A program made the translations under genes and the position numbers. 22,322 nt of DNA from the IMG/VR virus record IMGVR_UViG_3300035162_002970, positions 1 through 22,322 of that record. The stretch is one strand, 5' to 3'. The stretch comes from a virus. The notes below the pieces were generated by a model. The model saw nothing but the letters and a program-made list of their open reading frames with translations. It had not been told where the DNA came from and made no database searches. Below, piece after piece: positions 859 to 21,189 of this stretch (its first letter is position 1; every line of letters begins with the position of its first letter).

Positions 859-871
859 TAAAGGATTGATA

Positions 872-2537: not shown

Positions 2538-2945
2538 ATGGAACCAGAAGATTTATTTGATGGCTATGGTGTAGAAATAACTCTTAAAGAACGTGATGAT
2601 TTCTTGAAGGTAAAGGAAACCCTAACACGATTAGGTGTTTCTTCCCGTAAAGAAAATAAGTTATATCAGTCGTGTCACATCTTGCATAAACGAGGAAAGT
2701 ATGCTATACTACATTTCAAGGAATTGTTTTCCTTGGATGGGTTAGATAGCGATATCTCAGAAACGGATATAGGTAGAAGGAATACGATAGTAAAACTTCT
2801 AGTAGAATGGAAACTACTTAAAGTAGTTGATGAAGAAGAGTATGCTGAACCTCAAGTTAGTCTTGCTCAACTAAAGATTTTACCCCACTCCGAGAAAAAG
2901 AACTGGGAATTGATACCTAAATACCATATAGGTAAGCGTAGATAA
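2538..2945 (+). CDS. regA: RegA-like translational repressor
   Basis: RegA binds the ribosome-start regions of many early T4 mRNAs, including those of gp44 and gp45, and blocks their translation. This protein has 135 residues against 122 in T4. The extra length is an acidic N-terminal extension of about 11 residues (MEPEDLFDGYG) before VEITLKERDDFLKVKETLTR, which aligns closely with the T4 N-terminus. LYQSCHILHKRG (42-53), HFKEL and the ending KYHIGK are also RegA-like. In T4 gene 43 follows directly; here it is followed 23 bases later by a glycosyltransferase gene. The only start that retains the conserved core is the ATG at 2538. Confidence 0.93.
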   Translation: MEPEDLFDGYGVEITLKERDDFLKVKETLTRLGVSSRKENKLYQSCHILHKRGKYAILHFKELFSLDGLDSDISETDIGRRNTIVKLLVEWKLLKVVDEEEYAEPQVSLAQLKILPHSEKKNWELIPKYHIGKRR

Positions 2946-2968
2946 TACAGTGAAAGGCCTTTTTTATT

Positions 2969-3631
2969 ATGAGTATCCCAAAGATTATCCACCAATTGTG
3001 GGTAGGACCAAAACCTGCACCTCTTCATTTGATGAACACATGGAAAGAGTCTCATCCAGACTATGAGTATATGTTCTGGAATGAAGATACAATCGCAGAA
3101 CACTTTCCAGATGGACTCTACAATCAAAAGCAATACGACGCCATGCCAGAATGGAATGGTAAGTGTGATATTGCTCGATATGAAATACTCCAAAAGTTTG
3201 GTGGGTTCTTTCTCGATGCAGACTGTGTGTGCAAGCGACCACTCGATGACTATCTTTTAGAGAACGATAGTTTTAGTTGTTATGAGAATGAATTGATTCG
3301 TGGTCAACTAATCGCCGCTGGTTATCTTGGTTGTATAAAGGGTTGTGAGTTGATAGATCATCTTGTCAATCGTCTCCACGAACTTGAAGGTCAAACACTA
3401 CACGAAGGCCCCATGACTGCTTGGAAGACTGTGGGTCCAGTGTTCCTTACTAAGGCGGTACATGAACTTTCTTATATTAAGTTGGCAGTCTATCCTAGTT
3501 TTTACTTCATCCCAAATCACTACACTAAAATGAATCCGTACAATGGTCCGTTTGAACCATATGCAGATCAGTTCTGGGGTAGCACCGAAACCGCAGTCGG
3601 TAAGGTTGGAATGAACTATGAAGCATCTTGA
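2969..3631 (+). CDS. GT32-like (OCH1/Gly_transf_sug) glycosyltransferase
   Basis: This 220-residue protein probably transfers a sugar from a nucleotide-sugar donor in a metal-dependent way. It opens with IPKIIHQLWVG and has W-x-x-x-x-P-D-Y-E-Y near residues 25-34, then DIARYEILQKFGG (67-79) and the DAD metal-binding motif at 83-85. These are the hallmarks of the GT32 / DXD sugar-binding family. GAAAGG at 2952-2957 serves as ribosome site. It is the first gene of the glycan run after RegA. The donor and acceptor cannot be read from the sequence. No signal peptide or membrane segment is evident, so it should act in the cytoplasm. Confidence 0.82.
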   Translation: MSIPKIIHQLWVGPKPAPLHLMNTWKESHPDYEYMFWNEDTIAEHFPDGLYNQKQYDAMPEWNGKCDIARYEILQKFGGFFLDADCVCKRPLDDYLLENDSFSCYENELIRGQLIAAGYLGCIKGCELIDHLVNRLHELEGQTLHEGPMTAWKTVGPVFLTKAVHELSYIKLAVYPSFYFIPNHYTKMNPYNGPFEPYADQFWGSTETAVGKVGMNYEAS

Positions 3632-4238
3632 TTTATCGACACTTAAAACATACTGGATTAATCTAGATGATCGTACTGACAGACAAGACAGTATGATAAA
3701 GTTGTTTACTAGACTCGGTATGAATAACGTGGAGAGAATCTCTGCTATCAAAGCACAGCCGTACTACTTTGGTTGTGGTATGAGTCATATAAAAACTTTA
3801 GAGAGAGGTTTAGAGGGAGGAACTCCTTTTCTTGTTCTAGAGGATGATGTTACATTCAATGATACATTCAAGCCTACTCTCGATGTTCCTGATGAGATAG
3901 ATGCAGTTTATCTTGGGTGGACAACATGGAGTGCGACAGAAGAACGAGCGGCGTCTTCTAAGATGTCGAGGGCGTTAGAGATGCGAGTGTATGATGATAA
4001 CTTCGTAAAGATATCATACATGACATCTCTTCATGCCGTTCTCTACCTGAGCGAAGAGTATGTGAGAAAGTGTATCGACTCAATGAAAGAATGGGTACAG
4101 GAAAAGAAATGGCACTGTGATGTTGGGACTGCTGAAGTTCAGTGTGATTTCAATGTGGTAGTTCCTTTTGGTCGAACATGGTTCTATCAAGACGATCCTC
4201 GAAACATTCCGTGGACTAACGTGAAAGTAGATAAGTGA
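3618..4238 (+). CDS. GT25-like (LPS family) glycosyltransferase
   Basis: This 206-residue protein carries the pattern of glycosyltransferase family 25, whose bacterial members add galactose or glucose to lipooligosaccharide and whose animal members glycosylate collagen hydroxylysine. Visible motifs are YWINLDDRTDRQDSM (12-26), GCGMSHIKTLE (52-62) and FLVLEDDV (71-78), with the EDD putative metal-binding triad at 75-77. It begins 14 bases before the GT32-like gene ends, with a GGA-type ribosome site at 3608-3610, so the two are coupled. The sugar specificity is unknown. The collagen link of the family is notable given the collagen-like fibre downstream, but that is only suggestive. Confidence 0.82.
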   Translation: MKHLDLSTLKTYWINLDDRTDRQDSMIKLFTRLGMNNVERISAIKAQPYYFGCGMSHIKTLERGLEGGTPFLVLEDDVTFNDTFKPTLDVPDEIDAVYLGWTTWSATEERAASSKMSRALEMRVYDDNFVKISYMTSLHAVLYLSEEYVRKCIDSMKEWVQEKKWHCDVGTAEVQCDFNVVVPFGRTWFYQDDPRNIPWTNVKVDK

Positions 4239-5048
4239 ATGATTGTTAATCAAGAAATTGGATACTTGGGTAGACTAGCAAATCAGATGTTTCAGTATGC
4301 AGCATTGATTGGTATTGCCACTAAAAATAATTATGAGTATGGTATTCCGTTTGAGAACGCAAGAATACCAAAGACGACTCAACCATATGGACACATAGAA
4401 AAGTTAGAACTTATGGATGAGTTCAATCTTTCTGCTAAAGATAGCACAGGGGTTGCACCACAATATACATTATCGTATTATGATAATAAGTATGACGAAA
4501 GAGTATTTGATGTGCCAGATAATATTACTATGTCTGGTTACTTTCAAGTTCCTAAGTTTTTTGAACATTGTAGTGACAAGATAAAAGAAGAGTTTGCCTT
4601 TACATTAGAAACCACCGAACGCTGTTGGGAGAAACTAAGTTCTTTTGACAGGGATTTTCAAGTGTCTGCTGTTCATATTAGAAGAACAGACTATGCTAAG
4701 TCTAATGGTTGGCATAATATGTTAGGTATGGATTACTATAACGAAGCAATTAGTAACATAGGATCTGGTAAGTATGTTATCTTCTCTGATGATATAGGCT
4801 GGTGTAAAGAAAAGTTTGTTAGTGATGACAATAACCAGTTCTTTTTCTCAGAAGGTATGAACCAATTTGAAGATATGTGCTTGATTAGTATGTGTAAGAA
4901 TGTTATAATGGCAAACAGTTCTTTTAGTTGGTGGGGAGCATACTTGAATCCACACGCCGACACAATCATTTCTCCGAAGAAATGGCTTGGATCATCTCCA
5001 GAAGAAAGTTGGAGAGATATTTATTGTAAAGATTGGATAAGAGTATGA
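4239..5048 (+). CDS. GT11-like alpha-1,2-fucosyltransferase family protein
   Basis: This protein has 269 residues and a near-canonical GT11 layout. GRLANQMFQYAALIGIA is at residues 11-27, and HIRRTDY at 146-152 is the GDP-fucose-binding HxRRxD motif. IFSDDIGWCK is at 181-190 and a C-terminal MANSSFSWWGAYLN is at 224-237. Family members move L-fucose from GDP-fucose to a galactose in O-antigens or other glycans. The ATG follows the preceding stop directly. No GDP-mannose dehydratase or GDP-fucose synthase gene is visible in this window, so the donor would have to come from the host or from elsewhere in the genome. The exact linkage is inferred from the family only. Confidence 0.88.
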   Translation: MIVNQEIGYLGRLANQMFQYAALIGIATKNNYEYGIPFENARIPKTTQPYGHIEKLELMDEFNLSAKDSTGVAPQYTLSYYDNKYDERVFDVPDNITMSGYFQVPKFFEHCSDKIKEEFAFTLETTERCWEKLSSFDRDFQVSAVHIRRTDYAKSNGWHNMLGMDYYNEAISNIGSGKYVIFSDDIGWCKEKFVSDDNNQFFFSEGMNQFEDMCLISMCKNVIMANSSFSWWGAYLNPHADTIISPKKWLGSSPEESWRDIYCKDWIRV

Positions 5049-5899
5049 TTGGATTATTTCACGGTGGAGTAGGTAATAACAATGGGCCAGGAAAAGTAGC
5101 ATACAATCTGATGCTGGGTTTGGATAAGTTGGGTGTTGACTATGTTGTAAATCAAGAAGCAGATATTAATGGTTGCTTGACTGCATGGGGCCCACGGTTT
5201 ATGGATCTCCCAAAGAATACTTTGGTTGGTCCTAATCTCGTTGTTGTTCCTACAGACATTCCTCAGTTGTGGTATCGTTTCAAAAATGTTATTGTTCCTT
5301 GTCAGTGGGTAAAGAATAAATATGAAAGTTTTGAGATGACTCAGAATACAAATCTACATATTTGGCCTGTCGGTATTGATACTGATAAGTTTTCACCATC
5401 TAATGAAGTAAAAAATAATGATTGTTTAATTTACTTCAAGCGAGGATCGGAAGAGACAAAGAAAGAGTTAATTCGTTTGTTAGATTCTCAAAAACTTTCT
5501 TATGAACTCATTACCTACGGTAGTTACACAGAAGAACAATTGATGGATGTTGCAAGACGATCTAGATTCTGTGTTACTATTGCAGGAACTGAGAGTCAAG
5601 GTATTGCTTATCAGGAAATTCTTTCGATGGGTGTGCCTTGTTATGTTATTGATAAACTAGTTTGGGATGATCAACCACAACATACTTTTCCTGCTACATC
5701 AGCGCCGTATTTTGATAATAGGTGTGGAATAAAGTGTCCTGATCTTTCTCGACTCGAAGAGTTCATAGACGAACTCTTCATGGAAAGAGTCTTGAACATT
5801 TCTAAGTATGATCCGCGACAATACATACTAGACAACCTAACACTAGAGAAGTGTGCGAGTGATTATTTAAAACTATTGGAGATTAGTAATGAAAGATAA
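5045..5899 (+). CDS. GT4-like (GT-B fold) glycosyltransferase
   Basis: This 284-residue protein looks like a compact GT-B enzyme. The glycine-rich GLFHGGVGNNNGPGKVAYNL (3-22) forms the N-terminal donor/acceptor loop. VVVPTDIPQLW (67-77), VPCQWVKNKYE (84-94) and WPVGIDTDKF (107-116) bridge the two domains. The C-terminal E-x7-E motif of GT4 enzymes is at E183 and E191 (GTESQGIAYQEIL), followed by SMGVPCYV. The ATG at 5045 overlaps the preceding stop as ATGA and is preferred over TTG at 5033. Donor and acceptor are unknown. The protein is shorter than most GT4 enzymes (typically 350 or more residues). Confidence 0.75.
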   Translation: MIGLFHGGVGNNNGPGKVAYNLMLGLDKLGVDYVVNQEADINGCLTAWGPRFMDLPKNTLVGPNLVVVPTDIPQLWYRFKNVIVPCQWVKNKYESFEMTQNTNLHIWPVGIDTDKFSPSNEVKNNDCLIYFKRGSEETKKELIRLLDSQKLSYELITYGSYTEEQLMDVARRSRFCVTIAGTESQGIAYQEILSMGVPCYVIDKLVWDDQPQHTFPATSAPYFDNRCGIKCPDLSRLEEFIDELFMERVLNISKYDPRQYILDNLTLEKCASDYLKLLEISNER

Positions 5900-6488
5900 A
5901 TCTTTCTCACAAGCAAAACAAGATTTATTTGTTTTGCAAATGTTAAATAAAAAAATAAACGGGTTTTATCTTGAGATCGGAGGAGCATGGCCATTCGATC
6001 TCAGTAACACAGCGTTACTAGAACAAAACTATGGGTGGGTAGGTTTATCCTATGAAATTATGCAACAACGAGTTGATGATTATAATAAACTTAGAACTAA
6101 TAAATGTTATTGTGAAAATGCCACGCTGGTAGATTATACTTCTGAATTTCAAAAATATGACTTTCCAAAACAAATAGATTACCTGTCTTTGGACATTGAA
6201 CCTCACCACCAAACACTGAAATGTTTAAAGAAACTTCCACTGAATGATTATAGATTTTCAGTAATAACATATGAACACGATTCTTACGCGGGAGGAAATG
6301 TATCCAAAATGGAGTCTAGAGAAATTTTGCAATCATATGGTTATCAATTGGTTGTTTCTGATTTGACACATGTTCAAAATTCTTTTGAAGATTGGTATGT
6401 TGATCCAAATATTGTAGATGAAAAAATATATTCTCCTTTTATTGCACAAAATATTGAACATACTACCTTGTTTGAGGGAAAACTATGA
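5889..6488 (+). CDS. FkbM-like SAM-dependent methyltransferase
   Basis: This 199-residue protein has the FkbM/Methyltransf_21 layout: SQAKQDLFVLQML (7-19), the SAM-binding stretch FYLEIGGAWPFDLSNTALLE (26-45), GWVGLSYEI, then IDYLSLDIE (96-104) and VITYEHDSY (125-133). Members O-methylate sugars or other small hydroxylated molecules; the island context points to a glycan substrate. The usual DIGA loop reads EIGGAW, a conservative change. It overlaps the preceding gene by 11 bases. The region is visibly more AT-rich than the replication genes (one hand-counted 60-base line, 6061-6120, has 15 G+C), consistent with separate acquisition. Confidence 0.78.
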   Translation: MKDKSFSQAKQDLFVLQMLNKKINGFYLEIGGAWPFDLSNTALLEQNYGWVGLSYEIMQQRVDDYNKLRTNKCYCENATLVDYTSEFQKYDFPKQIDYLSLDIEPHHQTLKCLKKLPLNDYRFSVITYEHDSYAGGNVSKMESREILQSYGYQLVVSDLTHVQNSFEDWYVDPNIVDEKIYSPFIAQNIEHTTLFEGKL

Positions 6489-7225
6489 CGTTAGTTAAAA
6501 ATGAATGGACTAACTTTGAAAATCAAGTTCAAGATACAGAGGAATTCTTAAAACAACCTGCTGTTTTACAAACGATGTTTCAATCTGATCCTACTCTGTT
6601 TCAGAAAGAACTCATGTATATCAGAGAAAATAATAACGACTATCTAAAATTATTTAAAGATCCCAACCAATACGGAAGTCCCCTGTTGTTCGATATCAAT
6701 GGTGAAATATATAATCCAAATGATATTCATCATTTGTATCACTTATGCCGTTATGAAAATAAAATGGGAAAAATTGAATCACCTACTAAAATTTTAGAAT
6801 GGGGTGGTGGATATGGCAATATGTGTAAAGTAATGAATATGGTTTACGGTAATTTGATTGAATCATACACTATTATTGATTTGCCTAAATTTACTACAAT
6901 CAGCGAAAGATATATTTCAAATGTTTGTGAAACAGTAAATCATCATCATTTGTCTGTTGAAGATTTTGAGGATAAACTTGAATCCAAATATGATATGTTT
7001 TTATCTACATGGGCGTTAAGTGAGAGTCCTTCTTCTTGGACAGATTATATGGTATCTAATAGTTTTTTCGGTGCATCTAAATTTTTAATTGCTTTACATC
7101 AATGTGGTTCACATATTCCATTCATGGAAGAATCAACTAAACTTAGAAATGAGTTAAAGTTTTTTGATGTTAAAGAACAGTCAGTTGATGTTATTGATGG
7201 TATTAACTATTATATTTTGAAATGA
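6485..7225 (+). CDS. Putative sugar O-methyltransferase
   Basis: This 246-residue protein has a class I SAM-binding motif KILEWGGGYGNMCKVM (102-117) and a second strand ending IDLP (131-134), plus LSTWALSE near 173-180. The arrangement resembles the putative sugar O-methyltransferase group found in polysaccharide loci; a long N-terminal region of about 100 residues precedes the Rossmann core. It is coupled by ATGA to the FkbM-like gene, with a GAGGGA ribosome site about six bases upstream of the ATG. It shares that gene's low G+C (line 6841-6900 has 16 G+C in 60), so the two probably arrived as a pair. The methylated position is unknown. Confidence 0.68.
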   Translation: MTLVKNEWTNFENQVQDTEEFLKQPAVLQTMFQSDPTLFQKELMYIRENNNDYLKLFKDPNQYGSPLLFDINGEIYNPNDIHHLYHLCRYENKMGKIESPTKILEWGGGYGNMCKVMNMVYGNLIESYTIIDLPKFTTISERYISNVCETVNHHHLSVEDFEDKLESKYDMFLSTWALSESPSSWTDYMVSNSFFGASKFLIALHQCGSHIPFMEESTKLRNELKFFDVKEQSVDVIDGINYYILK

Positions 7226-7239
7226 AAAAGGAAAAAATA

Positions 7240-8112
7240 ATGAAAAGTATTAATGAAATGATAAGAGGGAAATTACATTTTGTTACAGGAGGTAGTGGAT
7301 TTTTAGGAGAAAAGGTTATTGAAAGACTCTTGGGGATGGGAGGAAATGTCATTACACTATCCCGCAATGAAGGAAAACTTATTGAACTTAAGCAGAAGTA
7401 TCCACAAATTGAAATTGCAACAGGGGATATATGTGATCCTATTGATGTGCATCAGTCAATCAAAAATGTTGATGGTGGGGTTTTTCATCTAGCGGCATTT
7501 AAGCACGTTGGTCTTGCGGAAAAATATGCACGGGAATGCACACGTTCAAATGTAACTGGTTCACTCAATGTACTCGAAGCATCTGCCATGCAAGGGTGTG
7601 ATTTTAATCTTGGAATTAGCACGGACAAAGCAGTTCAAGTTTCTGGAATCTATGGTGCAACCAAGTGTCTTATGGAGGGACTATATCATCAGTTCCAAGA
7701 AAACTATCCAGAGACAAAATTTAGACAAGTTAGATATGGTAATGTTCTTTACTCTACCGGTTCTGTTCTTTGTATATGGAAAGATCTTTTACAAAGAGGT
7801 GAAGAGGTCATCGTGACCGATCCAGATGCAACAAGATACTTTTGGACTTTAGAATCGGCCGTTGATCTTATTTTTGAGTGTCTCGCTGTGAGTAACACAT
7901 CAGATCCATATGTCCCCGAAATGAAGTCCATGCGGGTTGGTGATCTTTTGACCGCAATGGCAAACAAATATCTACCCAAGGATAAAGAACTCAAGGTTAA
8001 AGAAATTGGAATTCAACCCGGAGAGAATTTTCACGAAAAAGTTCATGCTGATGGTAAGAATTCATCTGAAGCAGAAAAATTTACTATTAAAGAAATTATG
8101 GAGTTAATCTGA
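7240..8112 (+). CDS. PseB/FlaA1-like UDP-GlcNAc 4,6-dehydratase (extended SDR)
   Basis: This 290-residue NAD(P)-dependent enzyme most resembles UDP-N-acetylglucosamine 4,6-dehydratases of the PseB/CapD type, which make a 4-keto-6-deoxy sugar. Motifs are VTGGSGFLG (15-23), GDICDP, HLAAFKHV, STDKAVQVSGIYGATK (127-142; the TDK and the Y-x-x-x-K pair are present), RYGNVLYSTGSV, TDPDATRYFWT and IQPGENFHE. Two starts are possible. ATG 7222 overlaps the previous stop but has no ribosome site. ATG 7240 has AAGG at 7228-7231 eight bases upstream and is preferred. The product is the natural substrate for a DegT-type aminotransferase such as the one at 9661. The substrate identity is inferred. Confidence 0.85.
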   Translation: MKSINEMIRGKLHFVTGGSGFLGEKVIERLLGMGGNVITLSRNEGKLIELKQKYPQIEIATGDICDPIDVHQSIKNVDGGVFHLAAFKHVGLAEKYARECTRSNVTGSLNVLEASAMQGCDFNLGISTDKAVQVSGIYGATKCLMEGLYHQFQENYPETKFRQVRYGNVLYSTGSVLCIWKDLLQRGEEVIVTDPDATRYFWTLESAVDLIFECLAVSNTSDPYVPEMKSMRVGDLLTAMANKYLPKDKELKVKEIGIQPGENFHEKVHADGKNSSEAEKFTIKEIMELI

Positions 8113-8981
8113 TGAAAATTTGTCTGATAGGATATCCCGGCAGCAAACACATTTTACCGGCGTCATCATTCCTGATTGATAAATATATCCCAAGTGATTT
8201 TGAGGTAAACTTTTTAAATTTTGGTGAGTATGATACTGATAAATTATTTTGTGGTAACTACATTAAACTAAGCGACACTCAAGAGGGTGGATCTTCTGCA
8301 TGGTCACGGTATCTCAGGGAATACTTTAGTTCTATAGAAGATGAGTTTGTTATTTTTGCTCTTGATGATTTTTTCTTGTGTCGGGACATGGACATGAAAG
8401 TGTATGATACTTTGTTAACAATGATTAGTGATGATTCAAATATTGCCTGTGCTAAATTAGGAATCAGTCCTCACCCAAGATTATACGAAATGGAACACAT
8501 TAAAAACTCTGACATCCATGCTTTTTCTCTTATAGAAAATGCATCATACTCTGCGTCAACACAATACTCTATATGGAGAAGAACTGTTCTCATAGATCTA
8601 TTAAATAATGTAACTGATGCTTGGTCTTTTGAGTTGAGGGGAACTGACTACTTAAACGGAACTGGACAGAAAGTAGTTGGATCTTCTAGAGTATGTCTTC
8701 CCTACTCAGAAAGTTCCGCTGTATCTAATCGCCACCCAAACAAAATTTCTGTTTTAGGAATTAACCCTACTGTAGTTGATGAGATGTTATCTAAAAATAT
8801 TTTTCCAGAGGAAGACTTAATTCTCGGACAACCGATTGGAAGCGTTCCTGCTTATTCCAAATATAAAAGTAATGTCCTTGATGGACTGAATACTATTTCG
8901 GAGAACGACTATAAAGAATACTGTACTTTGGTTTGTGATTTGGTTGAAGATAACACATATTTAAATGGGGTGGTGTCATGA
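8112..8981 (+). CDS. Probable GT-A-like glycosyltransferase (DDFF-motif type)
   Basis: This 289-residue protein is not assigned to a numbered family. It has W-S-R-Y-L-R-E-Y (64-71), EFVIFALDDFFLC (78-90) with a DDFF core at 85-88, STQYSIWRRTVL (149-160) and WSFE (171-174). This combination (a leucine-rich strand running into LDDFFL, then Q-x-x-I-W-R-R and W-x-F-E) recurs in unclassified capsule-locus glycosyltransferases that I recall. The DD pair is placed where a DXD metal site would be. It shares one base with the preceding stop (TGATG). The glycosyltransferase role is an inference from the motif and the locus, with donor and acceptor unknown. Confidence 0.55.
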   Translation: MKICLIGYPGSKHILPASSFLIDKYIPSDFEVNFLNFGEYDTDKLFCGNYIKLSDTQEGGSSAWSRYLREYFSSIEDEFVIFALDDFFLCRDMDMKVYDTLLTMISDDSNIACAKLGISPHPRLYEMEHIKNSDIHAFSLIENASYSASTQYSIWRRTVLIDLLNNVTDAWSFELRGTDYLNGTGQKVVGSSRVCLPYSESSAVSNRHPNKISVLGINPTVVDEMLSKNIFPEEDLILGQPIGSVPAYSKYKSNVLDGLNTISENDYKEYCTLVCDLVEDNTYLNGVVS

Positions 8982-9670
8982 GAAAACACTTAATATTATC
9001 CTTTAGTTCGTTTCATGTTGGTAGTGATCCTCAAAACAAACGAGAAGAGGAGTATGCTATTTGTTATGAGCAACTCCTTCGTGTGTTGCCGGATGATTTC
9101 GTCTGTAGGTTTATTGATAATACCACTAATGATATATCTGATATAAAAAACGAAAGATTAAAAAATGCTCTTGCAGAAACCCCATCAATCCTGTATAATA
9201 ACAACGTAGGAGAAACAAACAAAGGGTGGGGTGAATTAGACATGTTGGTTCGGGCAAAGAAACTTCTAGACTTTTCAGACTACAAAACAATTAGTTACTT
9301 AACCGGTCGAAGAATTTTAACCTGCCCATATGTCTTTGATAAAACAAGACAAACCGAAAAAGATGCTATTATGTCGAATCCATGTATCTACTCGATTATG
9401 AGTGGCATTGCACATCCTTTAGGAGAAAATCTTTACAATGATATGTTCTTTTCAATGAGTAGTGAAGTGATGCTACAGTATTGCGTATACTGTGAGAATA
9501 TTCTTAAGAATGGATCTTCTGGGTTAGGTTCTGAGCAAATTTTATACAATTTTATTAATGAAAACCAAATTGACTTTGAGTGGATTGAACATCTAGGATT
9601 TATTAGAAATGACTGGGAACTCTCGGGCAATGGATACACAAAACAAGAAGGAAATGCACAGTGGATATAA
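8978..9670 (+). CDS. Unrecognised protein of the glycan island
   Basis: This 230-residue protein belongs to no family I recognise. It starts MRKHLILSFSSFHVG and contains NNNVGETNKGWGELDMLVRA near residues 74-93, ISYLTGRRILTCPYVFDK near 105-122 and GSSGLGSEQILYNFI near 179-193. There is no signal peptide or membrane helix. The NKGWGELDML stretch, the TGRR strand and the GSEQ segment in a protein of this size would suit a glycosyltransferase-like enzyme, and its neighbours are a putative glycosyltransferase and a sugar aminotransferase. That is only contextual. It is coupled upstream by an ATGA overlap, and the next gene starts inside its last ten bases. Confidence 0.6.
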   Translation: MRKHLILSFSSFHVGSDPQNKREEEYAICYEQLLRVLPDDFVCRFIDNTTNDISDIKNERLKNALAETPSILYNNNVGETNKGWGELDMLVRAKKLLDFSDYKTISYLTGRRILTCPYVFDKTRQTEKDAIMSNPCIYSIMSGIAHPLGENLYNDMFFSMSSEVMLQYCVYCENILKNGSSGLGSEQILYNFINENQIDFEWIEHLGFIRNDWELSGNGYTKQEGNAQWI

Positions 9671-10764
9671 GAGATACAATGTTACCTGTTTTACGACCTC
9701 TCGGTGGTGAAGAGGAAGTTCAAGCAATCCGTGAAGTGATTGAAAGTGGTTGGTGGGGTAAAGGACCAAAGGTTGAGGAATTTGAAAATGAGTTTGCAAA
9801 GATGGTCGGGCATAAGTATGCCATTGCCGTGACTAGTAATTCTCATGGACAAGACTTAGTTATGAAAGCAAAGGGTCTTCATGGCATTGATGTCATCAAC
9901 CCTACAATTTCTTTTATTGCCACTGCACAAATTCCGCTTTGGAATAACTGCTCAACAAACATCGTTGATGTTAGAGAGCATGATTTGAATATTTGCCCCG
10001 ACGATGTTAAAAAGAGTCTCAAAAGAAATACAGATGCTATCATCGCCGTGAATATGGCAGGAGTTCCTGCCCCCATTGATGAAATTAGAAGTTTTTATGA
10101 TGGGTTTATTATTGAAGACTGTGCCCACAGTTGTTACGTTCCGGGTGCGGGTAAGAAAGGCGATTGTGCTGTTTGGTCTTTCCAAGCAGTAAAGACAATG
10201 CCATGCGGCGATGGAGGCATGATTACCACAGATGACTATGATCTGTATTGTAAAATGAAAGATATGACATGGTTTGGTGTCTCATCCACTTGGAGTCGAG
10301 CGAAAGGTCTCAGTGGAAAACCCGGATACTCTTGGGACTATCAGGTTGATCTATTGGGGTACAAGTATTATATGATTGATATCATGGCAGCGATTTGTCT
10401 TGAGCAAATGAAGAAACTACCAACTCACCTTGATATGAGAAAGCATATCCAATCCGAATACAATTCCAAGTTGCCGGAAATTGTTGGAAGACCACCTTTC
10501 TCCGAAACAGTGCAATATTATGTTGCAAGAGTTCCAAGTGAACATAGAGATAAACTCATTGATTTCTTGGCAAGTAAGAATGTTCACACTTCCGTACATT
10601 TTAAACCACTACACAAGTATTCTATTCTAAGACAATATAACTACCGTGACTATCCTGTCGCAGATGGTGTATGGGAGAGTTTGATTAGTTTACCTTGCCA
10701 CCCCGCGATGACACAAGAGGATATTGACTATGTAATTTATTGGGTCAAGGATTATTTTAAATGA
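9661..10764 (+). CDS. DegT/DnrJ/EryC1-family PLP sugar aminotransferase
   Basis: This 367-residue protein has the fold and length of sugar aminotransferases that convert a 4-keto (or 3-keto) nucleotide sugar to an amino sugar. Visible are GGEEEVQAIREVIESGWWGKGPKVEEFENEFA (split here as GGEEEVQAIREVIESGWW, 15-32, and GPKVEEFENEFA, 35-46), AVTSNSHG (56-63), EDCAHS (152-157) with D153 for the PLP nitrogen, and WSFQAVKTM with K178 as the internal aldimine lysine, followed by GDGGMI. The GTG at 9661 is chosen because AAGGA (9648-9652) lies 8 bases upstream; ATG 9679 is an alternative that would trim six residues. Its likely substrate is the product of the PseB-like enzyme encoded at 7240, a PseC-like relationship. 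Confidence 0.9.
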   Translation: MDIRDTMLPVLRPLGGEEEVQAIREVIESGWWGKGPKVEEFENEFAKMVGHKYAIAVTSNSHGQDLVMKAKGLHGIDVINPTISFIATAQIPLWNNCSTNIVDVREHDLNICPDDVKKSLKRNTDAIIAVNMAGVPAPIDEIRSFYDGFIIEDCAHSCYVPGAGKKGDCAVWSFQAVKTMPCGDGGMITTDDYDLYCKMKDMTWFGVSSTWSRAKGLSGKPGYSWDYQVDLLGYKYYMIDIMAAICLEQMKKLPTHLDMRKHIQSEYNSKLPEIVGRPPFSETVQYYVARVPSEHRDKLIDFLASKNVHTSVHFKPLHKYSILRQYNYRDYPVADGVWESLISLPCHPAMTQEDIDYVIYWVKDYFK

Positions 10765-11312
10765 AAGATCTTCTAGAAAAATATAAGGAATCACTTTGTG
10801 TTTTTAACGTATCTGACGAGTCAGACCATAATTTTCAAAGAACGCCGGGAACTGCTATGGATTTTCATACTAGGGCAGCAAAGGTAATGCAAGAGCATAA
10901 TATCAAAACTGTTCTCGACATTGGTTGCGGTTTCGGTGAGATTTGTTCTGAGTGCAATAAAATAGGCATTGATGCTTTTGGTATTGATCCGATTGTAGAT
11001 GAGCAGACCCTCACCCCAGATAAAATCTATAGAGGAACAATTGGCAGTGCGATTGGTACGATATTCAAAAAGGACTTTATCGTTGATTGTATCGTTTGTA
11101 CAAACATTATACACGCGGGTAGATACGATGAACTTAAAACCTTTTTGGACTGTGTTTACTCACACTCTAAATTTATTTTAGTGTCGCCTCCAAACTATGG
11201 CACTGGAGAAAATCTAGAGTCTTTTTGTGAAGAATATGGTTATGAAAATGTTCATAAGTTTGGACCAACTCACAGTGGACTGGTACAGCATTACCTTTTA
11301 AAAAAACTATGA
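10761..11312 (+). CDS. Class I SAM-dependent methyltransferase
   Basis: This 183-residue protein has a clear motif I, VLDIGCGFGEICSE (51-64), and an acidic second strand, AFGIDP (72-77). A motif IV-like VDCIVCTNIIHA and a later KFILVSPPNYG follow. It is a small Methyltransf_11/23-type enzyme. The island suggests a sugar O- or N-methyltransferase, possibly acting on the amino group made by the aminotransferase directly upstream, to which it is coupled by an ATGA overlap. That pairing is inference; the sequence alone shows only the SAM fold. Confidence 0.72.
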   Translation: MKDLLEKYKESLCVFNVSDESDHNFQRTPGTAMDFHTRAAKVMQEHNIKTVLDIGCGFGEICSECNKIGIDAFGIDPIVDEQTLTPDKIYRGTIGSAIGTIFKKDFIVDCIVCTNIIHAGRYDELKTFLDCVYSHSKFILVSPPNYGTGENLESFCEEYGYENVHKFGPTHSGLVQHYLLKKL

Positions 11313-12148
11313 TATATTCAATTGAAGGTACGGTAAATAACGATAAAAATCCAGTCTATGATTCACATGACCATCCAGACTTTCAGGAAAAGTTAGGGTT
11401 GTTCAAAGAAGATCTTGTGAAACTAGTAGAAGAAAACCAGTCTAAAACTTTTTATAAATTTGGAGATGGTGATTACTACTTTCTCCGAGGGGAAGGAATT
11501 GGTAGTGCAACTCCCGGAAGAAGGGCGTTGTCAAAAAATTATTCTGATATTAAACATGAAGAGTTTGTGGCAGGCGTTCCTCTGAATGATTATATTGGTG
11601 TTGAAACTTACAACACAGAATTATTCTCAAGTCTTTATCCAGATAGACCGATGGACTACTATGCGGAATATGGATATGGGTTGACTGCAAATAAATGGTT
11701 GACTAGCACATTTAAAGAATCTATCGGTGTCATTGGAGCAGGTCCAAAGATTAAACTTATTCAACAATTAATGCAGAGTGAGGAGTATCAAGAGTATCTC
11801 GGTCTAAAGGAGTTTACCGACTACATCGAGATACCACAAAAATTTGCATGTGATGATATCGATGAAACAGAAAGAATGGTAGGGGAGCAGTTGAGTAACT
11901 CATCATCTAAAATTTTTCTACTAGGGGTTGGGCATGTAAAATCCGCTTTACTTCATCGGTTGAAGAAATATACAAATGCGGTTTTCTTGGATGTTGGTAG
12001 TGGTATTGATGCTCTGGCGGGAATCATAGATCACAATCGTCCATACATGGGTGAGTGGGTGAATTACAGGGTATCAAGTTTTGATTATGATACGTTAGAT
12101 ATTTTACAGTATGACATATGGAATACTCCATACAAAATGATTGGATAA
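11309..12148 (+). CDS. GT-D-like (DUF1792/SP_1767-type) putative glycosyltransferase
   Basis: This 279-residue protein has FYKFGDGDYYFLRGEG (48-63), resembling the R/K-F-G-D-G-E metal/donor motif of GT-D fold glycosyltransferases. It also has VAGVPLNDYIG and SIGVIGAGPKIKLIQQ, and ends with KIFLLGVGHVKSALLHRLKK and AVFLDVGSGIDALAG (a D-x-G strand near the C-terminus, as in that fold). GT-D enzymes were described adding glucose to serine-rich streptococcal adhesins already bearing Glc-GlcNAc, so a protein-linked glycan acceptor is conceivable. Typical members read FGDGE; here the last residue is D. It is coupled upstream by ATGA. Family membership is moderately certain; specificity is unknown. 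Confidence 0.58.
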   Translation: MIYSIEGTVNNDKNPVYDSHDHPDFQEKLGLFKEDLVKLVEENQSKTFYKFGDGDYYFLRGEGIGSATPGRRALSKNYSDIKHEEFVAGVPLNDYIGVETYNTELFSSLYPDRPMDYYAEYGYGLTANKWLTSTFKESIGVIGAGPKIKLIQQLMQSEEYQEYLGLKEFTDYIEIPQKFACDDIDETERMVGEQLSNSSSKIFLLGVGHVKSALLHRLKKYTNAVFLDVGSGIDALAGIIDHNRPYMGEWVNYRVSSFDYDTLDILQYDIWNTPYKMIG

Positions 12149-12152
12149 AACA

Positions 12153-12374
12153 ATGAAAGATAAAACATATTCTACACTATCTGAGTATGGAAAAACATGC
12201 ACTCAACTGTTTCATTTTATTGGAGGTGAAAAGAGAACATTCAATAATATAAAAACAAAAAACATAAAACAAGGTCAGTTTACAAAGTTAGAAACTATTG
12301 ATGGTAGAATCATTATGATTAATGATAAAAATCTTTTACTAGTAGAAGTTATTTTTGATAAGGAAGATAAATGA
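12153..12374 (+). CDS. Small unrecognised protein
   Basis: This 73-residue, lysine-rich and probably beta-rich protein has FHFIGGEKRTF in the first half and TIDGRIIMINDKNLLLVEVIF at the end, a strand-turn-strand pattern of a small domain. I recognise no family. The ATG at 12153 is chosen over an in-frame TTG at 12141 because GGAT precedes it at a workable distance and because the TTG lies inside the upstream gene. It ends in an ATGA overlap with the SDR gene, so it is translated as part of the run. It may be an accessory or regulatory subunit, but nothing shows which. Confidence 0.6.
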   Translation: MKDKTYSTLSEYGKTCTQLFHFIGGEKRTFNNIKTKNIKQGQFTKLETIDGRIIMINDKNLLLVEVIFDKEDK

Positions 12375-13309
12375 ATATTTTAGTTACTGGTGGTGCTGGA
12401 TTTATTGGATCTAATCTAGTCAAGAACTTACTTGAGACTACAGATCATAGTGTTATAGTTGTAGATAGGGACAAGAAAAACGTACAAAGACTTGGGAATC
12501 TTGTTAAGGATTGTAGAGACGTTATAGTTTATAATAGTTGTTATGAATCTCTTATTGATTATATTCTTAAGACATATAAACCTGATACTATTATTCATCT
12601 CGCGGCGGTTCCGCGTGTGTCATACTCAGTCGAACATCCAGATATTACTACTCATGATAATGTATTTTTACTTTCTAAGTTATTGAACAAGTGTAGAAGT
12701 TCAGAGTCGGTGAAACGATTTGTGTTTGCCTCGTCTTCGTCTGTGTATGGAGGAGCCGAAGTTCTCCCAACACCAGAGACATGCCCACTTGATCCCAAAT
12801 CTCCATATGCACTTCAGAAGAAAATAGGAGAAGAGTATTGTAAAATGTTTTCTGAGTTGTATAGTTTAGACACTGTTTGTTTGAGATTCTTTAACGTGTT
12901 TGGTCCTGAACAATATGTTGATAGCCCATACGCCACAGTAATTTCTAACTGGTGTAACTCTATTAAAGAAGATCTTCCCTTGATAATAGATGACGATGGA
13001 AACCAAACTAGAGATTTTAACTATGTCGATAACGTCGTAGAGGCAATTAAGTGCGCCTCATTTACTGAAGGTAGATTTGATGGTGATGTATTTAATGTGG
13101 GTAATAATGAACAGACTTCACTGAATGAGATCTTAGAATGGTTCAAACAACATGAACATGAGTTTGAATTGGATCGCCGAGATCCAAGAGTCGGTGATGT
13201 TAGACACACAAGGGCAGATATCTCTAAGATTAAATCTATTGGTTATTCTCCAGTTTGTGATGTGTGGGAAGGACTAGAGAAAACTGCAAAGTGGTGGGGT
13301 TTGGTTTGA
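12371..13309 (+). CDS. NAD-dependent nucleotide-sugar epimerase/dehydratase (extended SDR)
   Basis: This 312-residue extended SDR is of the UDP-glucose 4-epimerase / WbpP type. The NAD-binding TGGAGFIGSN is at residues 6-15, HLAAVPRVSYSV at 76-87, SSSSVYG at 121-127, and the catalytic Y146 and K150 lie in PYALQKKIGEEY. RFFNVFGPEQ and DFNYVDNVVEAI follow, with FNVGNNEQTSLNEI near the end. It would interconvert or dehydrate a nucleotide sugar for the island enzymes; epimerase versus dehydratase cannot be told from motifs. It is the last gene of the coupled run, and a late promoter begins five bases after its stop. Confidence 0.85.
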   Translation: MNILVTGGAGFIGSNLVKNLLETTDHSVIVVDRDKKNVQRLGNLVKDCRDVIVYNSCYESLIDYILKTYKPDTIIHLAAVPRVSYSVEHPDITTHDNVFLLSKLLNKCRSSESVKRFVFASSSSVYGGAEVLPTPETCPLDPKSPYALQKKIGEEYCKMFSELYSLDTVCLRFFNVFGPEQYVDSPYATVISNWCNSIKEDLPLIIDDDGNQTRDFNYVDNVVEAIKCASFTEGRFDGDVFNVGNNEQTSLNEILEWFKQHEHEFELDRRDPRVGDVRHTRADISKIKSIGYSPVCDVWEGLEKTAKWWGLV

Positions 13310-13313
13310 GTAG

Positions 13314-13321
13314 TATAAATA
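13314..13321 (+). promoter_or_regulatory. T4-type late promoter TATAAATA
   Basis: An exact TATAAATA octamer, the T4 late promoter -10 recognised by the gp55 sigma factor, sits in the 46-base gap between the SDR and GT2-TPR genes. Its distance of 34 bases to the ATG fits a late leader with a TAAGGA ribosome site (13341-13346). It marks the switch from the glycan run to the virion module. Confidence 0.75.
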
Positions 13322-13355
13322 TAAGTGAAGCATATCACATTAAGGATTTTTTATT

Positions 13356-14600
13356 ATGAGCCGAACAAAAGTAACCCTGTGTATGATCGTGAAAGATGAG
13401 ACTCATATCATCGAAGAATGTCTTCGATCAATGGCAAAGTATGTCGATAGATATGATATTACAGATACTGGTTCTACAGATGGAACACAGGATCTTATCA
13501 AGAAAACAATGGATGAGTTGGGTGTTCCTGGCACCGTCCATCAGTCTGACTGGAAAGGCTTCGGTCCTTCTAGAACTGAATCACTACGAAACGCAGAGAA
13601 AAGTGATGCTGAATATGCGTGGATGATTGATGCTGATGATTACATTACTGGTAATTTTAAATACCCACCTAATATGAAATGTGATTCATATTCACTTCGT
13701 CTTGGTAGACCTGAGTTTATGTGGTGGCGTAATCAAATCTTTAAGTTGGGTATTGGTTGGGAATATACAGGCGTTCTTCATGAATATGCTCATTGTCCAT
13801 CAAAGCCAAAAGAAGAAGTTATTCTAGAAAAACTTCATGGTGATTATTTTGTAGTTGCTAGAACTGAGGGTAATCGTAACGTAGGTATTACCCCAAAGGA
13901 AAAATATACCAGAGATGCAGAGACTTTGTACTCAGCACTAAACAATCCTGAAGATCCACATTATGCGCCAACTAATGAAAGGTATCAATTCTATCTTGCT
14001 CAATCGTATTTTGATTCTCAGCAATTTGAAAAGTCATTTGAAGCCTATAGTAAGAGAGTAGAAATGGGTGGATGGGAAGAAGAGTGTTTCTATTCTCTCT
14101 TCCGTATGGCTATGCTCGCAGGGATGATGGAAAAACCATTCGGTGAAGTATGTGAACTTCTTCGTCAGTGTTACGAATATCGTCCCATTAGAGCAGAACC
14201 TTTGGTTGAACTTTCTAGACTATATAGAATGAACAATCGTCCTAGAACGGCTTATCTTTATGCAAAGGCCGCAGCAGAACTTATAATTCCTCCTCAAGAT
14301 ATTCTCTTTGTTTCTGAAGATTGTTATAACTGGAGATCATTGGATGAAGTATCTGCTACTGCGTTCTTTATGTTCCGATTTGAAGAAGGATATAATGCTA
14401 CTAAGAAACTTCTTCGAGAAAATAAGATGCCTGCATCTGAACTAGAAAGAATTAAGGGAAATCTAGTTCATTATGAGGGTAAGATGAAAGAGATGGAAGC
14501 ACAAAAACGAGAATATATGGCAAATATGAAACAACAGAAATCTGTTTCTAAACCTGTAATAAAAACTAAGTCATATAAAAAGAAAAAGGTTCGTTCGTAA
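13356..14600 (+). CDS. GT2 glycosyltransferase with C-terminal TPR-like repeats
   Basis: This 414-residue protein starts with a GT2/GT-A catalytic domain: TLCMIVKDETHIIEECLRSM (7-26), DTGSTDGT (37-44) for nucleotide binding and WMIDADD (89-95) with the DADD metal site. From about residue 210 the protein becomes helical with TPR-like units (RYQFYLAQSYFDSQQFEKSFEAY, split as RYQFYLAQSYFD and SQQFEKSFEAY; then AEPLVELSRLYRMNNRPRTA). The last 15 or so residues are strongly basic (KTKSYKKKKVRS). GT2-TPR proteins are often peptide or protein glycosyltransferases or bind extended acceptors. Being behind a late promoter and directly upstream of fibre genes, it is the best candidate here for attaching sugar to virion protein; that is inference. 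Confidence 0.85.
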   Translation: MSRTKVTLCMIVKDETHIIEECLRSMAKYVDRYDITDTGSTDGTQDLIKKTMDELGVPGTVHQSDWKGFGPSRTESLRNAEKSDAEYAWMIDADDYITGNFKYPPNMKCDSYSLRLGRPEFMWWRNQIFKLGIGWEYTGVLHEYAHCPSKPKEEVILEKLHGDYFVVARTEGNRNVGITPKEKYTRDAETLYSALNNPEDPHYAPTNERYQFYLAQSYFDSQQFEKSFEAYSKRVEMGGWEEECFYSLFRMAMLAGMMEKPFGEVCELLRQCYEYRPIRAEPLVELSRLYRMNNRPRTAYLYAKAAAELIIPPQDILFVSEDCYNWRSLDEVSATAFFMFRFEEGYNATKKLLRENKMPASELERIKGNLVHYEGKMKEMEAQKREYMANMKQQKSVSKPVIKTKSYKKKKVRS

Positions 14601-14603
14601 AAC

Positions 14604-14619
14604 CTATATACTGATATAG
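14604..14619 (+). other. Small hairpin before the fibre-operon gene
   Basis: CTATAT (14604-14609) and ATATAG (14614-14619) are exact reverse complements around an ACTG loop, four bases before an AGGAG ribosome site (14623-14627). The stem is AT-rich and no T-run follows, so it is more likely a leader structure than a terminator. No TATAAATA lies in this gap, so the structural genes probably rely on the late promoter at 13314. Confidence 0.35.
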
Positions 14620-14633
14620 ATCAGGAGAACAAT

Positions 14634-15080
14634 ATGGCTGCCGGACAATTTGATATTTTAGCAGATCAAGGAGCAAATTATGTTCTATACTTCACATACG
14701 AAGAGAACGATAATTCTGTAATAGATTTGGCTAATTATAACGGAAGAATGCAGGTTAGACGATCTGCGTTCTCGAATGATATTCTTTTATCTTGTGCTGG
14801 TAATACTGCTTCTGGTGGTGTTACTGGTGGTGGTGTTACTGGATCATTTACTGGAACTGGTGGAGTCGCTGGTTCTGGAACAATGCTTTTGAATGCTTCC
14901 ACTGCTGGTCTAACTGGTGCTAATGGTGTAACTGGTGGTGTGTTTGTTAGTCTTGATTCTACTTCTATGTCAAATATTCCTCACGGCCGTCATGTTTATG
15001 ATATAGAACTAATTGCGGGTGAAACTGTTAGTAGAGTTGTTCAAGGACGTTTTGAGGTTAGAGCAGAGGTAACTAGATAA
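14634..15080 (+). CDS. Small phage structural protein (tail/fibre-associated type)
   Basis: This 148-residue protein matches a pattern seen in many tailed-phage structural loci. It begins [42 protein letters not shown] (broken here as [19 protein letters not shown] and [13 protein letters not shown], residues 4-22 and 31-43) and ends [22 protein letters not shown] / [10 protein letters not shown]. The middle (about 57-103) is rich in Gly, Thr and Ser with repeated TGG and TGA steps. A small virion protein serving baseplate or fibre attachment is likely. The strong AGGAG ribosome site and a one-base overlap (TAATG) with the collagen-like gene indicate coordinate late expression. No specific T4 counterpart is claimed. 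Confidence 0.7.
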
Positions 15081-17695
15081 TGCCACAGATTAGAGTTATT
15101 ACTAGTAAATCGGGTGATCCTCAGATAGTTGGGGTTGGTGGTATTGTTCGTTCTAATGGTAATCAAAATCAACCAAATATTATAAAAATTGTTCAAGCGT
15201 CTGGTGTTGGCCCACAGGGAGCAGTTGGCCCACAGGGCCCACAAGGACTCATTGGTAACACTGGTCCCATTGGAAACACTGGCGCAACAGGAAACACTGG
15301 TGCCGATTCTTCAGTTCCTGGTCCTATAGGAACAACAGGAAACACTGGCGCAACAGGAAACACTGGTGCCGATTCTTCAGTTCCTGGTCCTATAGGAACA
15401 ACAGGAAACACTGGCCCTACTGGACCTGGTGTTACAGGAAGTGTTACATCACCTTATGTATCTTCTTCTGGTGGTGACGTAACTGCTGATAGTGTTAGTG
15501 GTATAGTAACTCTAACTCAACGCCAATATGATGGTATTACTGATGGACCATCTGGAGATGTTGTTTATATAATAAGTAATGCGTCTGTTGAAGATTCTGT
15601 TACTACATTCAATGGACTCACGGGTCAAGTCGGAATCAGTGCTGGTACTGAAATATCAATTACTCAATCTGGTAATACTTTTACCATAGCATCATCGACA
15701 TCAACTCTCCCATCACAAAGAACATTTTCCGCATCTGCTCCTTATACTTACACTTCTAGTCCGATAGCAGGTACTGCGACTTCCAACGGCGAAATATTAC
15801 ATAATACAAGTAACGACTCAATATCAATTTATAAATTTGATAATAATGGTGCAGATTTTAGAGATGTGTTATCGGAAGCATCTGCAATTGGTACTAGCGG
15901 TAGAGTTGGTATAGTATTTGGAACTTCGGATACAGAACGATCTTTTTATTATGATTCAGTGACATATAATGGCACTGCGTTTAATTTTACTACTACTGGT
16001 ATTGTTCCTGGCTCAAGTGCCGGGAGTGGTAAGGCAGTAGAACTACGAGTCTATCCCGATAACCCCACACAATCCGCCAGTAGTTATTTTGGATTCCCAG
16101 ATGGAACAAATGCTGTATCCATTGTTACATCATTCAACGGACAAACTGGCGATGTCATTGGAGTTTCGAGTGTTAATGGACAAACTGGCGCGGTCACTGT
16201 AACTGGTGGTGCTGGTGGTGGTGTTACAGGTGCTACTGGTAATACTGGTCCTGCTGGACCTATAGGTTCAACTGGTAATACTGGTCCTCAAGGGCCTATA
16301 GGTAATACTGGTGCTGCTGGAACTGGTAATACTGGTGATACTGGTCCTGCTGGACCTATAGGTAATACTGGTAATACTGGTCCTCAAGGGCCTATAGGTA
16401 ATACTGGTGCTGCTGGAACTGGTGATACTGGTGATACTGGTCCTCAAGGGCCTATAGGAAACACTGGTAATACTGGTCCTGCTGGACCTATAGGTAATAC
16501 TGGTAATACTGGTCCTCAAGGGCCTATAGGTAATACTGGTGCTGCTGGAACTGGTGATACTGGTGATACTGGTCCTCAAGGGCCTATAGGAAACACTGGT
16601 AATACTGGTCCTCAAGGGCCTATAGGTAATACTGGTGCTGCTGGAACTGGTGATACTGGTCCTCAAGGGCCTATAGGTAATACTGGTGCTGCTGGAACTG
16701 GTAATACTGGTAATACTGGTCCTCAAGGGCCTATAGGTAATACTGGTGCTGCTGGATCCGATGGAACTTCTGTAGGTTACACCGCAGGTAATACTGCTCC
16801 CGTTAGTTCACCAACAGGTGACTTCTGGTTTAGAAATGATACTGGATCATATTACGCAAATGTTTTTGATGGATCAACTCTTGGTTGGTTACAGATATCT
16901 GGTATTCAAGGTGTAACGGGTAATACTGGTGCCGCTGGATCTGGTGGTGGTGGAGTCTCTGCTGGAGCAGGACTAACACTCAACGGATCTACTCTAGGTA
17001 TTGATCCAACCGCCGTTGTTCATGTCGCTGGTATCTCTGCTGATGGTGTAATTACTGCATCTGGTAGATTTATTAATGATGGTGGTATTGTTCAGACTTC
17101 AGGTAATGTAGGTTCCAGATATGGGTATATTAATGGAGGAAATGACACCTCCGATACATCCCAATTTAGAGTATATGTAGGCAACAATACCCCCTTTCTC
17201 ACCGTCAATACTAATGGAGTTGATTCAGCGACTAGGGTAAAAGCAGGAACATATGTCCAAGCAGTAACATATGTCCAAGCAGGAACATATGTCCATGCTG
17301 GTACTGGTATCTCGATGGATGCTGGTGGTATTACCTTCGCTGATGGAACCCATCAAACAAGTGCCGCATCTGGATCTGGTAGTAGTGAATTTACAAGTTC
17401 ACATACAATGCTGTTAGAATTCCCAGACAATAAAGACTATTATCTGGATAGTTATACAGTGGCAGATCGAACATATAATCGATTCTTTGGTAAGAGTGTA
17501 ACTGGTGGATGTAGTGCAGACTTAAGAACCTCGCTTGGAGTAACTTTAGGATCAATATATGTAAATAATACTGGTGTTGGTGTTACCTTCAATACTGGAG
17601 TTACTATGGGTACGGAAGTCTTTATCACAATTAGGGGTGTTACTTCAGGAACATTCACAGAAGATGTAAGGTTTGTTGCAGGATATACGCAATGA
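15080..17695 (+). CDS. Collagen-like tail fibre / virion structural protein
   Basis: This 871-residue protein is the largest in the window. After a short N-terminal segment (residues 1-43) come Gly-X-Y blocks at about 44-120 and 384-558. They are separated by a beta-type region that holds three FNG/VNG-(L/Q)-TG-x-V motifs ([32 protein letters not shown]). After the second block comes [13 protein letters not shown]-type sequence, then [18 protein letters not shown] and [16 protein letters not shown], a stretch familiar from marine myovirus fibres. A C-terminal domain of about 110 residues ([14 protein letters not shown] onward) follows. It should be a trimeric, elongated surface protein. Most Y positions are Thr, so it offers many possible O-glycosylation sites. 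It is coupled upstream (TAATG) and downstream (ATGA). Confidence 0.85.
15272..15415 (+). repeat. 66-base tandem duplication in the fibre gene
   Basis: A 66-base unit at 15272-15337 is repeated at 15338-15403, and a third copy starts at 15404 but diverges after about 12 bases (GGAAACACTGGC). Each unit encodes 22 residues, [20 protein letters not shown] followed by TT. The copies look identical by eye, including the rarer AAACAC codon choice, so the duplication is recent or maintained by recombination. It stays in frame. Confidence 0.85.
16229..16753 (+). repeat. Main Gly-X-Y tandem repeat array
   Basis: About 525 bases encode residues 384-558, almost purely Gly-X-Y built from GPQ, GPI, GPA, GNT, GDT and GAA. 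The 17-mer CCTCAAGGGCCTATAGG occurs eight times (near 16286, 16382, 16442, 16514, 16574, 16610, 16661 and 16721), at spacings that are multiples of 3 but not constant (96, 60, 72, 60, 36, 51 and 60). Five GAA-GT-G steps break the triplet register by one residue. Near-identical DNA makes this a likely site of slippage and length variation. Confidence 0.9.
17243..17296 (+). repeat. Three 18-base tandem repeats in the fibre gene
   Basis: Units at 17243-17260, 17261-17278 and 17279-17296 read GCAGGAACATATGTCCAA, GCAGTAACATATGTCCAA and GCAGGAACATATGTCCAT. They encode [12 protein letters not shown] and AGTYVH. The six-residue period suggests three rungs of a beta-structured stalk downstream of the collagen array. 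Confidence 0.85.
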
Positions 17696-18948: not shown

Positions 18949-18952
18949 TTTT

Positions 18953-20602: not shown

Positions 20603-20618
20603 ACTTTATGGAGTGAGT

Positions 20619-21188: not shown

Positions 21189-21189
21189 T

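Follow-up and report, generated by a model that had tools for sequence, protein, structure and literature searches.

A constant GT2-TPR glycosyltransferase and an exchangeable sugar island in a marine T4-like phage: probable glycosylation of the phage's own collagen-like tail fibre

In C. difficile, the glycosyltransferase SgtA combines a GT-A domain with four tetratricopeptide repeats (TPRs), is encoded immediately upstream of bclA3, and in vitro places beta-O-linked N-acetylglucosamine (GlcNAc) on Thr residues of BclA3 collagen-repeat peptides; BclA3 glycans can bear an additional capping glycan (PMC7157674). A locus similar in architecture and gene order occurs in IMG/VR virus record IMGVR_UViG_3300035162_002970, a 22.3-kb fragment of an uncultured marine T4-like bacterial virus with T4-like replication genes flanking both ends; its whole length of 22,322 nucleotides is called the window below. 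Here a glycosyltransferase with a GT-A domain and TPR helices, designated GT2-TPR, is encoded 5' of a collagen-like tail fibre gene with Thr in its repeats, and forms the right edge of an island of sugar genes. Unlike the spore-coat system, the phage locus has a fibre, an exchangeable 10-kb sugar cassette, and a small tail gene between the enzyme and the collagen gene. In C. difficile one enzyme initiates a glycan that is later capped, and we propose the same scheme for the phage, whose sugars probably end up on the collagen-like fibre of its tail and not on the host surface. The original prediction, made from the letters of the window alone, had suggested fibre glycosylation by analogy with Bacillus BclA; SgtA with BclA3 is the better precedent.

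Other described systems resemble parts of this locus. GmaR and FlmG each join a glycosyltransferase to a TPR-type domain and act in the cytoplasm on a protein of a surface filament, as proposed for the phage, but their acceptor is flagellin and not a collagen-like fibre (for FlmG, PMC7591256). In mycobacteriophages, glycosyltransferases of the phage itself modify virion proteins (PMC12619734, citing Freeman et al. 2023); the targets are capsid and tail-tube C-termini, and the citing account mentions neither collagen nor an exchangeable sugar island. Mimivirus has collagen-like proteins, a collagen-glycosylating enzyme, L230, and methylated 4-amino-4,6-dideoxy sugars (PMC9614988), but this is a eukaryotic giant virus in which a different enzyme places glucose on hydroxylysine. 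The glycosyltransferase islands of pelagimyophages were published as modifying the host O-chain, and the host-recognition cluster of pelagimyophages and cyanophages likewise has variable glycosyltransferase genes among tail-fibre genes (PMC7029224). That cluster runs from vrlC to gp14, whereas regA and gp43 flank the locus described here, which is edged by the constant GT2-TPR; assignment to the host-recognition cluster was rejected on location. Phage virion glycosylation, viral collagen glycosylation and SgtA-type enzymes are each known already, but a tailed phage that unites them with an exchangeable cassette is not described as far as our literature searches went, which returned nothing on phage collagen glycosylation past the papers cited here.

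The GT2-TPR gene (13356..14600, plus strand) encodes a protein scoring above cut-off against PF00535, which we propose as the initiating protein O-glycosyltransferase. Its AlphaFold model (59 sequences; mean predicted local distance difference test score, pLDDT, 92.5) consists of a GT-A (GT2) domain with a DXD motif followed by helical TPR repeats, the architecture of SgtA, and the DADD metal motif (D92-A93-D94-D95) is invariant across 59 relatives. The best full-length folds in PDB are those of the peptide glycosyltransferases SunS and ThuS (E ~1e-14), in which a GT2 domain is joined to a TPR-like domain; identity to these is about 15%, and their substrate is an S-linked bacteriocin. Only the fold is similar: membership in the SunS family was rejected, as the enzyme scores 20.7 bits against TIGR04195, whose cut-off is 350. 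By sequence, the top PDB match is GmaR (7e-6). Taken together, the modelled fold and the neighbouring genes suggest protein acceptors.

When genomes of bacterial and archaeal species were searched by profile, 80 cellular relatives of GT2-TPR were recovered (loci L162-L241), and the genes around them provide the strongest evidence added by this analysis. A collagen-like open reading frame (ORF) lies within 8 kb in 37 of these 80 loci, within 1 kb in 29 and within 300 bp in 21, and just two of the nearest distances are greater than 2 kb. Thr mostly fills between 0.5 and 1.0 of the Y positions in the Gly-X-Y triplets of these ORFs. The linked loci span at least the Actinomycetota, Bacillota, Pseudomonadota, Myxococcota, Vulcanimicrobiota and Hydrogenedentota, and a collagen domain was found in 38 of 40 genomes carrying GT2-TPR versus 3 of 14 control genomes. 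Relatives from Firmicutes align with the phage enzyme across both domains, with an identity of about 25%. Judged by gene neighbourhood, GT2-TPR and Thr-rich Gly-X-Y collagen-like genes likely form a widespread bacterial collagen-glycosylation pair, a system that their linkage in several phyla predicts; to our knowledge, biochemistry for this architecture on collagen comes only from C. difficile. A FastTree tree groups the phage enzymes in a single clade (support 100) adjoining Mycobacteriaceae and two other bacterial sequences. The Mycobacteriaceae enzymes (L162-L165) might act on neighbouring PE_PGRS proteins.

In the window the collagen gene (15080..17695, plus strand), encoding the proposed acceptor, starts 480 bp 3' of GT2-TPR with one small gene between. 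Its product matches PF01391 (1.4e-21) and a PHROG tail fibre family (6e-40). Gly-X-Y runs span residues 44-98 and 381-564, and 41 of the 83 strict triplets (49%) carry Thr at Y, Thr making up 126 of all 871 residues; the product is the Thr-rich collagen-like fibre that the original prediction had recognized. The intervening gene (14634..15080, plus strand) encodes a small tail or fibre-associated protein (phrog_1084, 1e-17; phrog_3304, L-shaped tail fibre assembly, 2.5e-9) and is a frequent neighbour of GT2-TPR in relatives. Downstream on the same strand follow a LamG/concanavalin-like fibre-tip protein (17692..18486; phrog_8510, 1.5e-7; Laminin_G_3, E 0.013) and, at the end of the fibre module, a right-handed beta-helix protein (19335..20552; PF13229, 9e-12). 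Of the 44 non-redundant loci of phage relatives that extend 4 kb or more downstream, 20 have collagen within 5 kb. A tblastn search with the fibre gave zero matches, probably because of the low-complexity filter.

The phage relatives were taken from IMG/VR; these records, like the window, are fragments, and the large ones are possibly incomplete. Each of the 50 virus records searched has exactly one strong GT2-TPR copy, and the order regA, GT2-TPR, small gene before gp43 is identical in all 27 records having all three, the window included. Sister phage L002 is 94% identical in DNA to the window over 13352-15414 and 18909-22322, with homology beginning 4 bp 5' of the GT2-TPR start codon. GT2-TPR itself is 97% identical, the small tail protein 95% and the beta-helix protein 92%, while the middle of the fibre is changed and a different protein takes the place of the LamG protein. 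The L002 island is unrelated to that of the window save for one diverged epimerase; its nucleotidyltransferase, SIS, transaldolase and GHMP-kinase genes, which accompany GT10 and GT4 enzymes, suggest from their families that it makes a heptose-type sugar. Since the flanks and GT2-TPR are kept and the island and fibre tip differ, island and tip have been exchanged around an enzyme that stays. Other breakpoints occur: L082, a contig of the same dataset, matches the window at 98% identity over 1-2972 and departs from it at the island start, and L083 and L084 share the first four transferases with the window (85% over 31-5887) but differ from it past that point. The regA-gp43 site is a cassette hotspot with GT2-TPR as its constant right-hand gene. 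We know of no exchange of a sugar cassette for GmaR or FlmG. Island length correlates weakly with fibre-module length (rho 0.35, p 0.07), a result that carries no weight. By inspection, a GIY-YIG homing-endonuclease-like ORF (L046:1265-1822) sits exactly in the gap between regA and GT2-TPR of a locus lacking the island, and might promote recombination at this site.

ATAAATA is the core of the T4 late promoter. A late-promoter-like motif of this type, an exact TATAAATA (13314..13321, plus strand), lies 42 bp before the GT2-TPR start. The window holds two exact copies of TATAAATA, both on the coding strand and each 5' of an ORF; this number is not above chance (2.0 expected), and the weight of the motif rests on its position and on enrichment across relatives. 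In non-redundant loci, 12 of 46 GT2-TPR genes and 5 of 15 small tail genes have ATAAATA in the 100 bp upstream, against an expected fraction of 0.018. The corresponding counts are 0 of 27 for gp43 and 0 of 39 for dUTPase, and none were found for gp44 or gp62.

The data show which genes are present, that their position is conserved, that cassettes are exchanged, that the enzyme family is linked to collagen and which fold is predicted; from this we infer the acceptor, the sugar, the coupling of island to fibre and the biological effect as follows. GT2-TPR, expressed with the late genes, would use its TPR domain to grip the fibre protein in the cytoplasm and would initiate O-glycans on that protein, most likely by attaching a widespread sugar, for instance GlcNAc, to the Thr of Gly-X-Thr triplets; the action of SgtA on BclA3 is the model for this step. 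The island would provide activated sugars, probably including an O-methylated 4-amino-4,6-dideoxy sugar derived from UDP-GlcNAc, and its soluble glycosyltransferases would lengthen and cap the fibre glycan ahead of assembly. A joint swap of island and fibre tip would then give near-identical phages different fibre coats, which could influence fibre stability, protease resistance or adsorption. We judge glycosylation of the fibre, or of the virion, with the island supplying the glycan, to have slightly better than an even chance of being correct. The broader proposition, that throughout this clade of uncultured T4-like phages one fixed collagen-type glycosyltransferase and an exchangeable cassette rewrite the fibre glycan coat, with near-identical phages showing different sugars, and that the coat affects adsorption or fibre stability, is put forward tentatively and is on balance doubtful. 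The locus offers a specific alternative, sugars on the phage's own fibre, to the host-lipopolysaccharide view of marine T4-like glycosyltransferase islands. If it is right, tailed phages would be added to the short list of viruses that are known to put sugars on virions of their own, the presence of a tail module amid replication genes would be accounted for, and it would seem that fibre glycans are traded as cassettes.

The island (2969-13309, about 10.4 kb) comprises 13 tightly packed plus-strand genes with soluble products; those from 2969 to 12148 abut or overlap. The first three encode glycosyltransferases with family matches above cut-off, a GT32/DXD-type enzyme (2969..3631; PF04488, 1.4e-12), a GT25 enzyme (3618..4238; PF01755, 8e-10) and a GT11 enzyme of the fucosyltransferase family (4239..5048; PF01531, 6.5e-29), and these are followed by a weak GT4-like glycosyltransferase (5033..5899; PF00534/PF13439, E 0.006, below cut-off) that is kept in L066 and L076. 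Next come a weak FkbM-like methyltransferase (5889..6488; PF05050, E 0.15), a NanM-type sugar O-methyltransferase (6485..7225; TIGR04371, 48.3 bits against a cut-off of 44) and a UDP-GlcNAc 4,6-dehydratase-like protein of the PseB/FlaA1 type (7222..8112; PF02719, 4.5e-60; PseB, 3e-48, below the equivalog cut-off), whose nearest solved relatives are UDP-GlcNAc C6 dehydratases (PDB, 8e-35). Two soluble proteins had no match in family profile searches (8112..8981 and 8978..9670, the latter with 51-53% identity to L066 and L076). The remaining genes encode a DegT-family sugar aminotransferase of the PseC/ArnB type (9661..10764; PF01041, 6e-79; PseC, 2e-61, below cut-off; ArnB, 5e-47), a methyltransferase (10761..11312; Methyltransf_23, PF13489, 1.7e-7, above cut-off), a possible WecG/TagA-like glycosyltransferase without a clear family match (11309..12148; PF03808, weak at E 0.07) and, as the final gene, a nucleoside-diphosphate-sugar (NDP-sugar) epimerase of the short-chain dehydrogenase/reductase type (12371..13309; PF01370, 5e-53), in front of which a 73-amino-acid ORF (about 12153-12373) occupies the gap. 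A three-sequence structure prediction for 11309-12148 (pLDDT 51.5) was too poor to use, and the Foldseek match to TarA obtained from it (E 2e-3) was set aside.

These assignments agree in large part with the original prediction. Its fourteen coupled genes correspond to the 14 genes of at least 80 amino acids counted from 2969 to 14600, and the 4,6-dehydratase, aminotransferase and epimerase it named are the strongly supported enzymes listed above. Its six glycosyltransferases become five with family support (GT32, GT25, GT11, GT2 and the weak GT4-like enzyme), because 8112-8981, 8978-9670 and 11309-12148 lack a family match, and of its three methyltransferases the NanM-type and Methyltransf_23 enzymes score above cut-off and the third is merely FkbM-like. 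As to its central idea, action of the enzyme on the fibre gains support from the collagen linkage, the SunS/ThuS fold, the L002 exchange and the late motifs, but delivery of the island's sugar to the fibre stays conjectural: across phages Thr-rich collagen is not a constant partner of the enzyme, and the alternative that the prediction named, a changed host surface glycan, keeps some probability.

Several observations weigh against fibre glycosylation. In many phage relatives the collagen adjacent to GT2-TPR is poor in Thr (0-9% at Y) and rich in Lys, Arg, Gln and Glu, and three large fragments (77-126 kb, incomplete) are without any collagen; GT2-TPR may therefore use other residues or other virion proteins. 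Thr-rich collagens in such relatives are often, though not in every one, elsewhere in the genome or farther downstream, and Thr-rich collagen as an obligate partner was rejected for phages. The phage clade falls outside the main collagen-linked clades of the tree, and its closest cellular relatives, in the Mycobacteriaceae, adjoin Gly-rich PE_PGRS-like ORFs and not classical collagen. ATAAATA is equally enriched 5' of regA (12 of 39), a non-structural gene, and late read-through into the island is therefore conceivable; that this motif drives the island too is an unforeseen observation and only suggestive. The Thr-poor collagen recurs in L005, L006, L009, L010, L015, L018, L019, L031-L039, L071 and L246-L248, often directly 3' of GT2-TPR, with a near-constant number of Gly-X-Y triplets (mostly 54-60) that suggests a structural ruler.

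Up to eight minimal loci, running from regA to dUTPase, also count against the proposal, as they carry GT2-TPR with neither island nor fibre; regA and GT2-TPR are 28-49 bp apart in four records and 6.7-22.4 kb apart in the remainder. Retention of GT2-TPR where the island is absent implies a role independent of the island, and functions might accordingly be split, with GT2-TPR glycosylating the fibre or another virion protein and the island, highly diverse in content, acting separately, for example on the host envelope, from a recombination hotspot. The minimal-locus phages L044 and L069 hold other glycosyltransferase-like genes at a second site, 3' of a uvsX/RecA-like gene, as such a division would allow. 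Nevertheless, island and fibre were replaced together between phages otherwise 94% identical, the sampled island proteins all appear soluble, and SgtA-type glycans of C. difficile are extended by further sugars; we regard a split as unlikely.

Fibre glycosylation must also be weighed against remodelling of the host surface, in which the island, GT2-TPR included, would change the lipopolysaccharide or capsule of the infected cell and block adsorption of other phages. The kinds of enzyme in the island also build envelope glycans, GT11, GT25, GT32, PseB/PseC-like and NanM enzymes being generally known from envelope glycan clusters, and an altered host glycan is possible for the island enzymes especially. 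Related marine T4-like phages have been interpreted in this way in the literature (PMC7029224). However, none of 161 sampled island ORFs, some of them near-duplicates, has two or more predicted membrane (hydrophobic) segments, and the island therefore lacks the usual flippase, polymerase or membrane glycosyltransferase; neither among these ORFs nor in the 25 leading Pfam families from a set of 87 island proteins was there a flippase, a polymerase, a lipid-linked initiating transferase or a membrane protein of the Gtr type, and assignment to an envelope polysaccharide (O-antigen or capsule) cluster or a Gtr seroconversion system was rejected. The leading families are soluble transferases, NDP-sugar enzymes and methyltransferases. 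Such content fits assembly of a glycan on a cytoplasmic acceptor, unlike envelope clusters with their flippases and polymerases, although peripheral transferases working on host lipid carriers are a possibility compatible with it. GT2-TPR is, moreover, collagen-linked in bacteria and peptide-transferase-like in fold, and late-promoter-like motifs suit virion genes more than early superinfection exclusion. Remodelling of the host surface seems to us improbable, to about the same degree as a split.

Hypermodification of DNA, by transferases resembling the T4 alpha- and beta-glucosyltransferases that act on modified bases of phage DNA, might be read from the position of GT2-TPR amid replication genes and from a downstream 'nucleotide modification associated' domain protein below cut-off, but it is very improbable, as the thymidylate synthase/dCMP hydroxymethylase family occurs in 0 of 12 relatives (58-157 kb, all possibly incomplete), the GT2-TPR fold and neighbours indicate protein acceptors, and 4-amino sugars and O-methylation are unexpected in T4-type DNA glucosylation.

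The flanks place the window among T4-like (Kyanoviridae-like) phages by Pfam matches to homologous replication genes and by the order gp45-gp44-gp62-regA-gp43. The left edge of the island is a replication and regulation block encoding gp45, gp44, a Cpn10-like protein, gp62 and regA (169..2945, plus strand), and the right flank (20577..22322, plus strand) encodes dUTPase, a small MazG-like protein and the start of gp43. A whole-window megablast against phage records gave zero matches, and gp44 is at most about 56% identical to those of HTVC008M, Melnitz phages and cyanophages. The 18 kb between regA and gp43 in the window compare with one small gene in HTVC008M and three genes in S-SM2, cultured relatives whose maps reach far enough; the cultured relatives checked have few genes there or none. 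The Cpn10/GroES-like gene (1813-2103) is flanked by gp44 and gp62. Small unlisted ORFs at 12153-12373, 18487-18722 and 18749-18946 (about 73, 78 and 65 amino acids) occupy seeming gaps in the window.

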